Source of the DNA: a virus
Direction: 5' to 3' (one strand)
DNA length: 64,000 nucleotides
Virus record (IMG/VR): IMGVR_UViG_3300028840_001395
Span: 248,001-312,000 of that record
The notes beneath the pieces are model-generated. The model did not search any database, was not told the DNA's origin, and saw only the letters and a list, made by a program, of their open reading frames with translations. Shown one piece after another: positions 2,276 to 7,581 of the stretch. Made by a program: the position numbers and the translations under genes. Position 1 is the stretch's first letter, and each line of letters begins with the position of its first letter.

Positions 2276-3067
2276 TCAGGCGCAGCGCTTGATGGTGTCG
2301 AGCAGGTCGTCGGTGGCGACGAAGCCCTGCTTGACCGCCTCGGCAGCCGCCGTGCCACCGGCCCGCAGGATGAAGTCCGTGCCCGGCTCCAGCCTGTAGG
2401 ACACGTAGCGCCGCACCGGCAGCTTGCTGCGGAGCAGGCCCTTGGCGACCGTCTTGGCCTTCGACTTGGCCTTCGGCACCGGGCCGTTCGGGGCCGGGGT
2501 GATGACCGTCTCGTGGATCTTCAGCCCCTGGAGGTAGATGGTGCCCGGCAGCGGGGCCTTGGCCTCGCCGGGGTTGCACTCGCGGCACTGGCAGTTGGCC
2601 TTGCCGCTGCACTTGTAGACCCGCGCTCCCCGGACGGGCTCGCCGTCGAGGGTCAGGCCGTCGAACACGTCCTGGGTGGTGGAGGTGGACTCGGCGTTGG
2701 GGTCGAGCGTCCGCTCGAAGCTGGCGACCAGCTCGTCCCGCGCCGCCGTGAAGTCGGCCAGCGTCAGGGCGTTGCCCTTGCCGTCCACGATGCCCTTGGC
2801 GGTCGCGTCGGCCAGGGCGGCGTCGAGGTCGGCGTCCCGCACCTGCTCCAAGGAGCGGCGCACCAGGTTCTCGTAGCGGAAGCCGGTCAGGATGACGACG
2901 TGAACCTCGTCGTCACCGTAGGTCTTCCGGGCCGCGCCCCGCCCGCGCTCCGTGCCGCGCTTGCGGGTGATGAGGCCGGTGAAGGTGCCCTTGCGGGCGT
3001 CCTTGAGCAGCAGGCCGAGCAGGTCGGAGTTGCTGTTGCTGCGGGCCGTGCGAGTCGTCGTTGCCAT
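2276..3067 (-). CDS. Phage protein of unknown function with Cys-rich loop
   Basis: 263 residues. An N-terminal Ser/Asn/Arg-rich tail leads into a region with TYGDDEVHVVILTGFRYENL (about residues 49-68) and an acidic helical segment, then a compact cysteine cluster (YKCSGKANCQCRECNPG, about residues 150-166) that could bind one zinc, and a basic Lys/Pro stretch. The C-terminus carries a strand-rich segment. I do not recognise the family. It has its own copy of the early-type promoter (3093-3121) with GGAG a few bases before the ATG, so strong early expression is expected. Confidence 0.65.
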   Translation of the reverse strand: MATTTRTARSNSNSDLLGLLLKDARKGTFTGLITRKRGTERGRGAARKTYGDDEVHVVILTGFRYENLVRRSLEQVRDADLDAALADATAKGIVDGKGNALTLADFTAARDELVASFERTLDPNAESTSTTQDVFDGLTLDGEPVRGARVYKCSGKANCQCRECNPGEAKAPLPGTIYLQGLKIHETVITPAPNGPVPKAKSKAKTVAKGLLRSKLPVRRYVSYRLEPGTDFILRAGGTAAAEAVKQGFVATDDLLDTIKRCA

Positions 3068-3092
3068 CTTCGTTCTCCTTTCGTCCTCACCT

Positions 3093-3121
3093 AGACTACT
3101 CTGGCCCAGACCGAAATAAGA
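3093..3121 (-). promoter_or_regulatory. Early-type promoter, copy 2
   Basis: Minus strand: TCTTAT (3121-3116), 17-nt spacer, TAGTCT (3098-3093), followed by AGGTGAGGA. It is divergent to copy 3 and drives the gene starting at 3067. Confidence 0.75.
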
Positions 3122-3141
3122 CCGTCCTAAGACGGTTTTTT
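3120..3141 (+). terminator. Hairpin with T-run between divergent promoters
   Basis: ACCGTC-CTAA-GACGGT followed by six T residues is a textbook intrinsic terminator on the plus strand. Read on the minus strand the same stem is followed by CTTATTT, so it might also stop minus-strand read-through from the virion genes. It overlaps the -35 region of promoter copy 2. Confidence 0.6.
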
Positions 3142-3178
3142 CTTTCTAAGGAACGCGCGTCCCGCGTAGAGAAAAGGG

Positions 3179-3207
3179 TCTTATCTCGGCCCACCACAGA
3201 GTAGTCT
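3179..3207 (+). promoter_or_regulatory. Early-type promoter, copy 3, in front of the structured RNA
   Basis: TCTTAT (3179-3184), 17-nt spacer, TAGTCT (3202-3207). Transcription would start near 3213-3214, exactly at the 5' edge of the structured region. No reading frame with a ribosome site follows for about 600 nt. Confidence 0.75.
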
Positions 3208-3800
3208 AGGTGAACGGGGAGCGAAGCATAGAGGCAAGCTCCCAAGCTCTGTGAGAAGTCAAGACTATGGGCGGCTTGGAGGGCTCGGTAGGCGGCTCCG
3301 AAAGGGGTAACCTCCGCCGGTTGCAACCTGGACGGGGTACCGAGTCGAGGGTTCAATTCCACTCCCGCTCACACACGAAGAAGTCGGTGCCCCGAGGGGG
3401 TGCCGATAGGATAGACTGCCAGAGGCTTCAACCAAGGAGGGTTCAGCCGATGGGCTAGAGTCAGCCCTACGATGTCCCTGAACTGGTCCTGGGGCATCGT
3501 GGAAAGACGCTCACCACCCTTGAGGAGAGCGTCCTGGGCAACGAGGTTCAGGGGCCTCCCGGAACCCCCCGAGGCCAGCTTGCAATGGGCGAGCTGGGGC
3601 TGGTACTCGGGCCGGGGGGATGGTATAGACCAGGCAAGGTTGACAGCTCCGGCCCCAACCCTCGGCGGAGGGATTCGAGCACGGACGACGCTAGGCCCGC
3701 TCTGCGTGGATGTCGCGTGACAGTCGGCTCGATACCCGGTGATGTGCGAGGCCCAAGTCGAGTGAACGGTGCCGAGACTAGCGGCACCCTCACTTGCACC
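3208..3800 (+). ncRNA. Candidate large structured noncoding RNA
   Basis: About 590 nt without a credible gene but dense in perfect or near-perfect helices. These include GGGAGC/GCTCCC (3217-3222/3238-3243), CCAAGC/GCTTGG (3242-3247/3274-3279), CTCGGTA/TACCGAG (3284-3290/3338-3344) and GGCGG/CCGCC enclosing CTCC-GAAA-GGGG (3291-3318). A 9-bp hairpin spans 3385-3405. Others are ACGATG/CATCGT (3469-3474/3495-3500), GACGCTC/GAGCGTC (3506-3512/3527-3533), CCCGAG/CTCGGG (3568-3573/3606-3611) enclosing a 7-bp hairpin (3577-3595), and AGTGA...GGTGCCG/CGGCACC...TCACT (3761-3794). A T-loop-like GGTTCAATTCC lies at 3350-3360. The 5' end (3212-3218) can pair with 3364-3370 at six of seven positions. Size, phage location and T-loop recall the GOLLD and ROOL classes, but identity with either is not shown. 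Confidence 0.65.
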
Positions 3801-3857
3801 CCCGAAGCGGACTGGAGTAGAGTGACCCCATGATCTTCGCACTCATCGGAGCCGACT

Positions 3858-3899
3858 TCCAACGGACGTTCGCGCGGGTTACGCCCGCGCCCGTTGGAG
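3858..3899 (+). promoter_or_regulatory. Hairpin leader ending at the ribosome site
   Basis: CCAACG (3859-3864) can pair with CGTTGG (3892-3897), enclosing GCGCGGG/CCCGCGC with a TTACG loop. The outer stem covers part of the GGAGG ribosome site for the ATG at 3906, so the structure could limit translation. A -10-like TAGAGT lies upstream at 3818-3823. Confidence 0.5.
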
Positions 3900-3905
3900 G
3901 TCAAC

Positions 3906-4253
3906 ATGGCACGAGGAATCGCGTTTCGTAGGCACCACACCCATCGGGTCTGCCACAACCGCCGAACCCTTCACCTGGCCCTCATGTCGGATCTGACTGA
4001 GGCTGACATCGGACGGTGGGGTTACCCCACCTGGTACGACAAACGGTGTCTCTTCGGGTGCAACTGCTCGGCCAAGACTCCGGGCCGTCCCCGCCGGGGT
4101 CATGGGGTTTGTCGCACGGGTCAGCGGGATCGCATCTACAACTGGCGTCGTGAGGCCGTCCGCATCGGTCATCTGTCTCGGTTCTACTCGGGTGTGGACT
4201 GGGACTCGGATGAGGTGGTGCTGGCTACTTCGGGGACTGACTACAGCTACTGA
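3906..4253 (+). CDS. Small basic Cys/His protein, RRHH family
   Basis: 115 residues from ATG 3906, chosen because GGAGG lies 5 nt upstream. The N-terminus reads MARGIAFRRHHTHR and the middle has CLFGCNCSAKTPGRPRRGHG. This FRRHH...C-x-C...(N/T)PG-R layout resembles a widespread family of tiny uncharacterised basic proteins in bacteria and phages, probably zinc-binding and nucleic-acid-binding. It is the only plausible protein gene downstream of the structured RNA on the same strand, and its stop abuts the stop of the convergent gene at 4254. Function unknown; the RNA neighbourhood makes an RNA-binding role the most natural guess. Confidence 0.65.
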   Translation: MARGIAFRRHHTHRVCHNRRTLHLALMSDLTEADIGRWGYPTWYDKRCLFGCNCSAKTPGRPRRGHGVCRTGQRDRIYNWRREAVRIGHLSRFYSGVDWDSDEVVLATSGTDYSY

Positions 4254-5300
4254 TCACTTCAGGGTGATGTAGGTGTAGATGTTGCTCTTCTCGCCATCGT
4301 GGACATCGACGCTCTTGATCTTGTCCTTGAAAGGCCGCAGGGCCGGATCGAGCTTGGAGTGGTACCGCTTGAGTTCCTCCTCGACCATCTCCTGATACCG
4401 CTGCCACCCATACTCGGACTCACCCTCCTTGGGGAGCCAGTCGGAGCGATACCCACCCTCGATCCTGAGATTGTCCTTCGAGATGGTGGTCTCGTGACGA
4501 CTCCAGGACATTCCCATGTCATCGGTGATGCGCTTCAGGACGGCTGCGATGGCCTGTGCCGTTTCCGCCCGAGCAGCAGTGGCATCGGCTTCGCCCTTCA
4601 TTCCAGGCCAGCCCCGAAGCAACTCAAGGAAGTTCAGGGCGACAGCCTTGGCGTCCTTGACAGTGGCCGCACCCATGCGGCCCACGTTCATCTGGAGGCC
4701 TTCCTTCTGGCCCGTGTTCTCCCAGACGGTGAGCTGTGCCGGAATCCCGTGGGACTGGTGCTCGTCAATGCGGAAGGTGACCAGGAAGGTGTGACCCGGC
4801 CCGCCGTAGCGGTAGTGCCCCTCGGGCTTCTGCCAGGCTTCGATCTGGAGCTTCTTCGGGTCAACGAGCTTTGCCTTGATCATGCGAGCCGCTGCAGCGG
4901 TGACCTTCTTCAGCGCCGGAGGCATCTGCTTCTTGGAGAGCCTCTGGATCATCTTGGTCGCGTCGGTGACGTGCTTCTGGAATCGCTTCACCATCGTCTG
5001 AGCGTCACGGAGAGCCCTCGCAGCCGTCTTGTCCTCGGGATAGGCTGCGATGACCTCTTCGACGCTTTGGAGAACGCCCTGCGCCGCCTTGAGGCCCGCC
5101 CTGGCCTTCTTGAGCGCATCCAACTGGGAACGCACGTCGGCATCCCCGGCAGCCATCTTGTAGTGCAGGCCGAAGGTGTCGGTCACCTCCTCGATGTTCT
5201 GGGACAGCTCATCGAGGGTGTCGAGCGTATCGAGCAGCTTCCCCATGTTGGGGAGCGCCGCCTGCTTGGCGACCCATCGAGCGGCGACGCGCTTCTTCAT
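4254..5300 (-). CDS. Probable virion protein with N-terminal RVAARW tag
   Basis: 348 residues from ATG 5300 (a longer upstream frame has no ribosome site). It begins MKKRVAARWVAKQA, one of several proteins here with an R-V-A-A-R-aromatic tag. Residues about 20-185 are almost entirely helical, with heptad-like Leu/Val/Ala spacing consistent with a coiled coil. The C-terminal 160 residues are alpha/beta with Tyr/Gly/His-rich turns (GHYRYGGPGHTFLVTFRID) and I cannot assign them. It follows the Dps-like gene by 2 nt, so it belongs to the same operon. A structural or DNA-associated virion protein is inferred from context only. Confidence 0.65.
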   Translation of the reverse strand: MKKRVAARWVAKQAALPNMGKLLDTLDTLDELSQNIEEVTDTFGLHYKMAAGDADVRSQLDALKKARAGLKAAQGVLQSVEEVIAAYPEDKTAARALRDAQTMVKRFQKHVTDATKMIQRLSKKQMPPALKKVTAAAARMIKAKLVDPKKLQIEAWQKPEGHYRYGGPGHTFLVTFRIDEHQSHGIPAQLTVWENTGQKEGLQMNVGRMGAATVKDAKAVALNFLELLRGWPGMKGEADATAARAETAQAIAAVLKRITDDMGMSWSRHETTISKDNLRIEGGYRSDWLPKEGESEYGWQRYQEMVEEELKRYHSKLDPALRPFKDKIKSVDVHDGEKSNIYTYITLK

Positions 5301-5302
5301 GT

Positions 5303-5848
5303 CTACTTCCCCTTGGCCAGATACCAGGCCGCAACCCGACCGGCATGACCGCCCCGGAGCCGCTGCTTGAGCAGGTACACGTTGGTCTCGTGGGCGTTCG
5401 CCAGAGCAGCCAGGTAGTCGTTCATCCCGAGCGGCAGGTTGCCCTGGTCTTCCAGGCTCTCGAACATGACCTTGAGAAGCACCTGGAGGGTCTCTTCGGC
5501 AGCCAGCGCCCGGCGGATGGGGTCTTCGTAGCCCATCCACATCTTGACGACCTCGGCCTCCCACAGAATCTGGGCGTGTGGGTCGATGGCTTCGGAGCCG
5601 TAGTAGGCGATGATCTTCTCACCCAGCGTGTCGATCTCCTCGATGGGCGGACTCTCCTCCTCGTCGTCCCCGATGTAGAGGCGCTCGAACAGAAGGTGGT
5701 CGCCGTAGAAGCTGCTCCCCTTGACCTTCCAGTGGGTCGTCCAGTGAAGCCACTGCATCGCCCGCAAGACTCCCAGCAGTTGGGTGTAGAGGCCCTGAGC
5801 ATCGGCCTGCTTCCATTGGGCGGCGAGCTTGGCCAGTTGCTTCTTCAT
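5303..5848 (-). CDS. Dps-like ferritin-fold protein
   Basis: 181 residues with the Dps/ferritin-like signature: LHWTTHWKVKG (H39), FYGDHLLFERLY (H51) and IEEIDTLGEKI (D73, E77). The 12-residue H-H spacing and 4-residue D-E spacing match the inter-subunit ferroxidase site of Dps. An acidic insert (DDEEESPP) lengthens the loop between them. Family Dps proteins form 12-mers that oxidise and store iron and protect or bind DNA. The C-terminus carries the tag GRVAAWYLAKGK, shared with neighbouring probable virion proteins, so it may be packaged or made late. Enzyme activity is inferred from conserved residues. Start is ATG 5848. Confidence 0.8.
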   Translation of the reverse strand: MKKQLAKLAAQWKQADAQGLYTQLLGVLRAMQWLHWTTHWKVKGSSFYGDHLLFERLYIGDDEEESPPIEEIDTLGEKIIAYYGSEAIDPHAQILWEAEVVKMWMGYEDPIRRALAAEETLQVLLKVMFESLEDQGNLPLGMNDYLAALANAHETNVYLLKQRLRGGHAGRVAAWYLAKGK

Positions 5849-5860
5849 CGCATCCTCACT

Positions 5861-7414
5861 TCAGTTCGATGTCATGGAAGCCACGTAGCGAGCGGCTACA
5901 CGGGCGGCAAACTTGTGGACTTCGAGGCGCAGGTTACGATCCCCGAGCGCTTCCTGCGCCTGGCTCAAGAGTTCCTCGGGAACTCCCATGAGAGAGGCGA
6001 CATCCTCGGCATCGACGTGAGACATCGTTTCAGAGCCATCCTCGAACTTGACGATCCCGAGGGTGTCAGGGGCCACGTCGAAGGACACGTCCTCGACCTT
6101 GACCCCCGGTGAGGGGAAGTTCTTGGCGTCGCTGATGATGGCAGCCCGCCGAAGGTAGCGGGCTGCCACGCGAGCAGCCCATCTACCACTGCCCAGGCCC
6201 TCGATCTGTTCCAACAGGGTCTTCTGCTGACTAGGTTTCATCGCCCGCCACTGCCGCCGGTAGTAGGCGTAGGCCTGGCGCTCGGTCATGTCCAGTTCGC
6301 CGTCCTGCCAGAAGTTCTCAGGCCCCTGCTCCTTCCACTCACCGATCACTGAATTCAGTTCCGAGTCGCTCATGCGGTTGAACGGCCCTTCCTCCTCCCT
6401 GGCCTTCCCCAGTGCCACGAAGACCTTGGCGATCTTGTCCGCGATGGCGGCGACCTGCCGGGTTGTCCTGTCCACGTTGGACTTCGGAGCCACCTTGAAT
6501 GGCCGCAGGAGCTTGGCCATCTTGTCCCACTCGGCCCGGTCATTGAACCCAGTCGGGTTTACGATCAGCCGGTAGCGACCATCGGGCTGGATGGGCTGGG
6601 GTGGATTGCTCATCCGTTCGGCTGTGAAGGCCGTGTACGCATCGTGTAGGGCGAACTCCAGCCGGGCCTTGTTCCCGGCCATCTGCGGGAGCATCAGGTC
6701 AGCATGGAGCTTGACGAACCGACCCTCAAGCTCGGGCGGCAGGGTGCCGGGCTTGTACCGCAGCACGGGCATGGGCTGACGGGTGAACTTGGAGCCAGGG
6801 AAGGCCCTCTGTGCATCCCCCAGCATCCCACCGACTGCGTTGAGCATCTTCTGAACATCCGGCGCGACCTTGACCGCTGCAGTCTTCTTGTCCGCCGCTT
6901 CCATCTGGCCCACCACCTTCTCGGCCCACGCCTGCCCGGCGTCACCACCCCAGAGGAGCCAGGACACGTAGCCCTTGTCATTCCAGGGTTCGTTCTTGTG
7001 CTCCGCAGCGACGGACTTGTTCTTCTGATGCCGGGCGAAGAACGCCTTCATCTGCTTGACGACTTTCGGACTCACCGTGTCCCGGTTCTTCAGGTTGGTC
7101 GCCCGCTGCACCCCGGAGCCGATGCCCTCCTTGGACGCCTCGGAGGGAGTCAACCCGCCCCTGTTCGACGGGCTGGCCTTCTGGCGATACTCCAGACCCT
7201 TCTTCGCTGCACTGGCGACACCCGCAGGGGGCTTGAAGTTGATGTGGTCGTAGCTGGCCTTGGCGGTCTTGCGCCAGCCTCCACCCTGGTCGTTGTACCA
7301 CTTCACAGCCCACTGGCTCGCGTAGGCACTCGGATACACGTCGAAGCGACTCCGGGCCTCGTTCAGCGCCTCTTGCCAGAGAGCCTCGTCGGTCGGTTGG
7401 TTCTCGCGGGCCAT
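5861..7414 (-). CDS. DUF5872/DUF5824-type phage protein with two RVAARY tags
   Basis: 517 residues from ATG 7414, which overlaps the previous stop (TGATG). Residues 1-50 (ALNEARSRFDVYPSAYAS, then a Gly/Trp turn) match the DUF5872 pattern. Residues about 60-160, with SNRGGLTPSEASKEGIGSG and GYVSWLLWGGDAGQAWAEK, match DUF5824, both recurrent in virion-associated phage proteins. A middle region of unknown fold follows. The C-terminal third has the tag RVAARYLRRA, a small domain, and the tag again (FAARVAARYVA) seven residues from the end. The duplicated tag flanking a small domain looks like a targeting or cleavage signal. Biochemical function unknown. Confidence 0.75.
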   Translation of the reverse strand: MARENQPTDEALWQEALNEARSRFDVYPSAYASQWAVKWYNDQGGGWRKTAKASYDHINFKPPAGVASAAKKGLEYRQKASPSNRGGLTPSEASKEGIGSGVQRATNLKNRDTVSPKVVKQMKAFFARHQKNKSVAAEHKNEPWNDKGYVSWLLWGGDAGQAWAEKVVGQMEAADKKTAAVKVAPDVQKMLNAVGGMLGDAQRAFPGSKFTRQPMPVLRYKPGTLPPELEGRFVKLHADLMLPQMAGNKARLEFALHDAYTAFTAERMSNPPQPIQPDGRYRLIVNPTGFNDRAEWDKMAKLLRPFKVAPKSNVDRTTRQVAAIADKIAKVFVALGKAREEEGPFNRMSDSELNSVIGEWKEQGPENFWQDGELDMTERQAYAYYRRQWRAMKPSQQKTLLEQIEGLGSGRWAARVAARYLRRAAIISDAKNFPSPGVKVEDVSFDVAPDTLGIVKFEDGSETMSHVDAEDVASLMGVPEELLSQAQEALGDRNLRLEVHKFAARVAARYVASMTSN

Positions 7415-7581
7415 CAGGGGGTGTCTCCAGGCTTCAGAGGGTCGAAGTCCTTGCCACCGCAAGGCGGGATCGGCAGGTCTTCGAGCGGCGGGCTGGGAAC
7501 GATGCCGACCCCGTAGGGACAGGTGTTGTAGTGAGACTTCCCACAGCGGACACAGGCCGGGGGCTTCTGCTCGTCTGCCAT
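7414..7581 (-). CDS. Tiny Cys-rich protein paired with a tail spike
   Basis: 55 residues from ATG 7581, overlapping the spike stop upstream and the next start downstream. It has CVRCGKSHYNTCPYG, then PPCGGKDFDPLKPG. The layout C-x2-C-x-K...CP...PPC-x-G-x-DF-x-P-x-x-P is shared with the 52-residue gene at 9105, which also directly follows a spike gene. Four Cys could bind one zinc. It could be a spike chaperone or a small decoration subunit, but only the pairing is seen. Confidence 0.7.
   Translation of the reverse strand: MADEQKPPACVRCGKSHYNTCPYGVGIVPSPPLEDLPIPPCGGKDFDPLKPGDTP

Follow-up and report, generated by a model that had tools for sequence, protein, structure and literature searches.

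A candidate promoter-driven structured noncoding RNA with a tRNA-like 5' domain in a jumbo phage genome

To our knowledge, few large noncoding RNAs (ncRNAs) of phages have been described, and two of them, GOLLD and ROOL, have no established function. Both are cage-forming phage RNAs often found near tRNA islands; ROOL assembles into an octameric cage, and some GOLLD linkers contain tRNAs (PMC12286853). Here we analyzed a window of 64,000 nucleotides (G000:C1:248001-312000) from a virus record of 435,804 bp, and coordinates refer to this window unless another sequence is named. Positions 3208-3790 seem to form a stand-alone, promoter-driven structured phage ncRNA of ~0.58 kb with a tRNA-like 5' domain, whose function we infer; we give this reading an even chance of being correct. 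The element resembles ROOL and GOLLD in its size class (~0.6-0.8 kb; the ROOL model has 574 positions), its noncoding and phage-encoded nature, its many helices with a possible pseudoknot, and its tRNA-rich genome. On the other hand, it matches neither model, has a tRNA-like head and no homologues that we could find, and does not adjoin a tRNA island.

The initial annotation had suggested that the region may be a member of GOLLD or ROOL, and covariance models did not bear this out. When the whole Rfam library, introns included, was run over 3050-4000 at E<=10, no meaningful match fell on the element, and the GOLLD, ROOL, tmRNA and tRNA models all failed to match it. Family searches of the phage and 18 relatives with the ROOL model (RF03087) and the model of the conserved 3' region of GOLLD (RF02032) were also empty; these are weak negatives, since control genomes (14 for ROOL) were silent too. 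A divergent cage-forming RNA of the GOLLD or ROOL type, lying below the sensitivity of the Rfam models, would agree with the size, the phage origin and the wealth of tRNAs, and also with the frequent location of both classes near tRNA islands and the tRNAs in some GOLLD linkers. However, the absence of any match at E<=10, the empty family searches and the distance of ~128 kb between the element and the tRNA island make such a relationship highly improbable, although the element does have a degenerate tRNA-like domain at its own 5' end. It could function in the manner of the large ornate phage RNAs, but membership in any known family was not detected.

Searches for homologues came back empty: blastn against GenBank phages, the 485-kb metagenomic phage LR745208.1 and the records of 43 relatives found none, nor did exact scans of the IMG/VR and GTDB genomes for a motif of the element or a search for this motif with a 3-mismatch pattern. 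An 18-nt match in LR745208.1 (L024) sits in a gene that reads as transposon-associated and TnpB-like. Relatives sought through neighbouring proteins were likewise not found, and the LR745208.1 gene related to 2276-3067 has no obvious comparable noncoding region alongside.

Judged from its sequence, the virus record is a jumbo phage. The major-head-type protein shares 87% identity with its counterpart in LR745208.1 and 38-49% with the major head proteins of Bacillus phage G and of Tunturi_5, and a second protein shows weak similarity to the Mu portal. ARAGORN finds ~70 tRNA genes, the majority at 85-123 kb, and the tmRNA is normal (tag ANDEAVLQAA); tRNA and tmRNA are the sole families that the Rfam library detects in the whole genome. 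The gene-free gap that holds the element measures 826 nt and is among the largest in this dense genome, in which several further large apparent gaps proved to bear genes.

The promoter that had been proposed upstream of the region (Table 1) was recovered as a phage-specific type with the consensus KCTTAY-N15-CAGAGTAGTCTAGG. Most of its ~52 copies lie 10-25 nt 5' of a start codon, and promoters of this type also precede the tmRNA, by 22 nt, and an ochre tRNA, by 10 nt. The copy at 3179-3208 has its next feature only after 686 nt, and transcription from it would start at about 3212-3216. At the other edge, no intrinsic terminator was found 3' of the element on the + strand; the hairpin at 3768-3788 is terminator-like by position alone and lacks a T-run. 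The sequence TAGAGTGAC occurs twice in the genome, both times in intergenic DNA, and the other occurrence belongs to TTGACA-N17-TAGAGT preceding a tRNA. Since the site at 3794-3823 resembles this tRNA promoter, the element probably ends near 3790 and ORF 3906-4253 would have its own promoter, although the site was absent from the output of a stricter promoter scan.

Table 1. Positions of the element, its predicted parts and associated features.
Feature	Position	Strand	Basis
Divergent copy of the phage-specific promoter, serving gene 2276-3067 (-)	3092-3121	-	Promoter scan
Phage-specific promoter TCTTATCTCGGCCCACCACAGAGTAGTCTA	3179-3208	+	~52 genome copies
Predicted tRNA-like 5' domain	3212-3371	+	Constrained and free folding
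Acceptor-like stem, one A-C mismatch	3212-3218/3364-3370	+	Folding
D-like stem	3220-3222/3238-3240	+	Folding
Arm in anticodon position, without anticodon loop	3242-3247/3274-3279	+	Folding
Giant variable arm	3284-3290/3338-3344	+	Folding
T-arm	3347-3363	+	Folding
Canonical T-loop GGTTCAATTCC, irregular stem	3350-3360	+	Pattern scan
Hairpin, 11 bp including G-U pairs	3383-3407	+	Pair probabilities 0.77-0.98
Hairpin, 12 bp	3467-3502	+	Helix searches, pair probabilities
Hairpin GACGCTC/GAGCGTC	3506-3533	+	Helix search, pair probabilities
Hairpin CCAGCTTGC/GCGAGCTGG	3575-3597	+	G-U helix search, pair probabilities
Helix GGGCCGGGG/CTCCGGCCC around small hairpin	3609-3655	+	Probability ~0.5
Shared hairpin, 23-nt loop UAGGCCCGCUCNGCGUGGAUGUC, stem ACGC/GCGU	3688-3718	+	Genome comparison, covariance model
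Hairpin GGTGCCG/CGGCACC at 3' edge of element	3768-3788	+	Helix search, pair probabilities
Candidate second promoter TTGCAC-N18-TAGAGT, 5' of downstream ORF	3794-3823	+	Likeness to a tRNA promoter
Orphan gene for small basic protein, Shine-Dalgarno GGAGG	3906-4253 (ORF 3894-4253)	+	Weakly positive codon score
Ochre (UUA) tRNA with giant variable region	G000 242044-242258 (L015 3044-3258)	-	ARAGORN, tRNA model

As the initial annotation had stated, the region holds no gene. All ORFs of at least 30 aa within 3096-3890 have negative codon scores, with the exception of the downstream gene 3894-4253, and the ORFs of 3096-3890 match nothing in Pfam or PHROGs; a protein-coding reading of the region was rejected on these scores and the lack of matches. 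The region appears real, structured and noncoding, and it is probably transcribed. ORF 3906-4253, for whose protein we found no relatives, is probably a separate gene. Beyond it, neighbouring genes on the - strand at 4254-7462 have translations in which an RVAA(R/W)(Y/W)(L/V)-type motif recurs close to the protein ends, possibly a common processing or targeting signal of virion proteins.

The same arrangement could be read without a separate ncRNA, the region being a structured 5' leader of great length through which the orphan ORF 3906-4253 is controlled. The ORF is the next feature downstream, on the same strand and with no intervening terminator, and a GC-rich hairpin (3820-3899, z -3.1) lies directly 5' of its Shine-Dalgarno sequence. 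However, the close spacing of most other promoter copies to their genes and the second promoter-like site at 3794-3823 argue against a leader. Nor would one expect a leader to have a tRNA-like head or to share a hairpin with a tRNA. We consider this reading unlikely.

For the region as a stand-alone RNA, the support from folding depends on the measure. At least ten helices of 5-10 bp, many of them perfect, had been described; perfect Watson-Crick helices are not in excess over shuffled sequences, either at >=6 bp (22 vs 16.1 +/- 4.5) or at >=7 bp (6 vs 5.0), whereas long helices that include G-U pairs are, on the + strand only. With G-U pairs allowed, eight helices of >=10 bp form on the + strand (2.5 expected; 0/100 shuffles reach this count) and three on the - strand (4.0 expected). 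By MFE, the + strand folds more stably than the - strand by 21.6 kcal/mol, a difference that comes partly from composition. The MFE of the whole region is weakly low (z -1.2 with 20 shuffles, -2.1 with 30), and local stability is greater at 3373-3690 (z -3.3). Since the phage's genuine tmRNA reaches only z -0.9 by the same measure, the weak global score cannot exclude an RNA. A GAAA tetraloop hairpin reported earlier, CUCC-GAAA-GGGG, is visible by eye but is not used in the MFE structure. Downstream of the 5' domain, the loop UGAAC (3479-3483) is complementary to GUUCA (3546-3550), suggesting a possible pseudoknot.

The T-loop-like sequence and the closure of the first 160 nt, both noted in the initial annotation, were upheld and can be placed in a tRNA-like arrangement. 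The T-loop is canonical; recognised tRNA genes aside, the genome has seven GGTTCRANYCC sites including this one. The 21-nt sequence GTCGAGGGTTCAATTCCACTC is identical at 19 of 21 positions to the T-arm of the phage tRNA-Ile(GAU). Directly 3' of the T-arm, CCCGCUC (3364-3370) faces GAACGGG (3212-3218), near the putative transcription start, and six of the seven pairs are predicted to form. Their probabilities are 0.65-0.97 in the isolated domain, and 8/400 shuffles match it in the number of end-closing pairs. Closure drops to a probability of 0.04 in the 583-nt fold; it would require the 5' domain to fold first. The full cloverleaf of the isolated domain lies 1.2-1.9 kcal/mol above the MFE, with probabilities of 0.10-0.18 for the T-arm stem pairs, and in the cloverleaf model the apical part of the arm in the anticodon position measures 26 nt, in place of a 7-nt anticodon loop. 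Neither ARAGORN nor Infernal with RF00005 detected a tRNA gene in the 5' domain. Since it has no 7-nt anticodon loop, an irregular T-stem and no match to the tRNA model, the 5' domain is not a functional decoding tRNA, and the tRNA-like reading itself was assembled post hoc, after inspection.

The tRNA-like domain of tmRNA (RF00023) offers another comparison. Both have an acceptor-type closure and a T-loop and lack an anticodon loop, and the element carries the promoter type of the phage's own tmRNA. On the other hand, the element has no recognised tag reading frame, neither the tmRNA model nor the ARAGORN tmRNA search matches it, and the phage already has a normal tmRNA. The A-C mismatch occupies the third acceptor pair, the position of a G-U pair in alanine tRNAs and tmRNA; a link of the mismatch to alanylation is speculation.

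The irregular T-stem, the acceptor mismatch and the absent anticodon loop would also be expected of a tRNA-gene remnant with spacer, left nonfunctional by the turnover of tRNAs in the phage. The lack of homologues and the weak global folding score fit such decay, as do further odd tRNA-like genes in the genome. Four of these (L021 2787-2863 and 2876-2950, L008 14406-14481 on the - strand and L020 19728-19801) have anticodon loops of odd size and could not be assigned by ARAGORN; two are in tandem, with the same anticodon arm and differing acceptors. Decayed sequence would, however, hardly account for a strong promoter kept intact within a dense genome, a G-U helix excess on one strand only, the stable hairpins at 3383-3597 beyond the tRNA-like part, and a near-identical 27-nt hairpin in a second RNA. 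This explanation is therefore also doubtful in our view.

The second RNA is the ochre tRNA of the same phage. A comparison of all intergenic sequences revealed that 26 of the 27 nt at 3690-3716 are identical to a stretch within this tRNA's insert (E 5.5e-6), on the transcribed strand at both sites; besides promoter and tRNA sequence, this match is the element's sole intergenic link in the genome. The copy in the insert has the stem CUGC/GCAG, and the 31-nt hairpins thus differ by two compensatory pair changes, which are suggestive and, with two sequences, not significant. A covariance model of the hairpin found two copies, both in this phage, and nothing convincing among 44 relatives. The 27-mer could also be read on the opposite strand as a coding remnant (DIHAERA-stop), and this was rejected, as such a reading would run antisense to the tRNA and belongs to no long frame.

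The ochre tRNA reads UAA with its UUA anticodon and has a perfect acceptor stem, a T-arm and its own promoter. Its insert of ~150 nt lies in the variable region (a 140-nt intron by the ARAGORN reading), and it scores 28.2 bits with the tRNA model, against a cut-off of 29. An amber (CUA) tRNA adjoins it at L015 2943-3033 (-), and the UUA tRNA of LR745208.1 has no insert. Among 354 well-scoring genes of the phage, TAA is the stop in 25 and TAG in 124, indicating that wholesale stop recoding is absent. The element and the ochre tRNA have in common an own promoter, a T-arm, a giant variable region, the 27-nt hairpin on the transcribed strand and the lack of an encoded CCA. Unlike the element, the ochre tRNA possesses a proper anticodon arm and is scored as a tRNA. 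A further difference is that the hairpin of the element lies ~315 nt past the tRNA-like domain and not within it.

From the promoter, the absence of coding signal, the strand-specific structure, the T-loop with its closure and the shared hairpin, which the sequence itself supports, we infer the transcription, ends, fold, partner and function of the element. Transcription from the phage-specific promoter would begin within a few bases of 3212, and the first 160 nt would fold while emerging into a tRNA-like domain consisting of an acceptor-like stem, a D-like arm, an elongated arm without a loop in the anticodon position, a giant variable arm and a T-arm. Behind this domain, the other ~420 nt would form a row of stable hairpins, possibly with a pseudoknot, and would end ahead of the second promoter, which would serve ORF 3906-4253. 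The tRNA-like domain may engage tRNA-binding factors such as processing or CCA enzymes, a synthetase or EF-Tu, in a decoy or stability role. The shared hairpin may be a docking site for one common partner, which would bring the element and the ochre tRNA into the same complex during infection. Against the reading as an ncRNA stand the missing homologue, the weak global z score, the missing + strand terminator and the low closure probability in the 583-nt fold. In a bolder version, which we hold to be rather improbable, the element would be the founder of a new class of phage RNAs with a tRNA-like head, a large ornate body and a docking hairpin shared with a stop-codon-reading tRNA, the two RNAs joining in a phage ribonucleoprotein to redirect translation or tRNA metabolism.

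Other structured stretches were seen in these genomes. At L009 2869-3970 (-), ~1.1 kb of strongly structured sequence (z -3.7) extends from a promoter to a tRNA-Asn and includes a short frame that reads like an HNH endonuclease. In LR745208.1, a tRNA-Ile(UAU) (L040 7806-8092) is interrupted by an intron of 210 nt, the 3' part of which (AAGATATAGTCC) resembles a small group I intron. A 796-nt gap at L006 657-1452 (G000 60.7-61.5 kb) has no coding signal and a - strand fold with z -4.1. In addition, two tandem noncoding stretches of ~280 and 310 nt (L012 12466-12185 and 12153-11844, - strand; G000 ~192.1-192.5 kb) each have their own copy of the same promoter and no Rfam match; the 810-nt gap in L012 folds very stably on the transcribed strand (z -5.3), and the two stretches are further candidate ncRNAs.

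Since two more candidates occur in the same genome, our analysis points to additional promoter-driven, unclassified RNAs in huge phages. An RNA that starts like a tRNA and has a motif in common with a suppressor-type tRNA would offer a concrete way into the role of such RNAs, through a common binding partner and the acceptor end.
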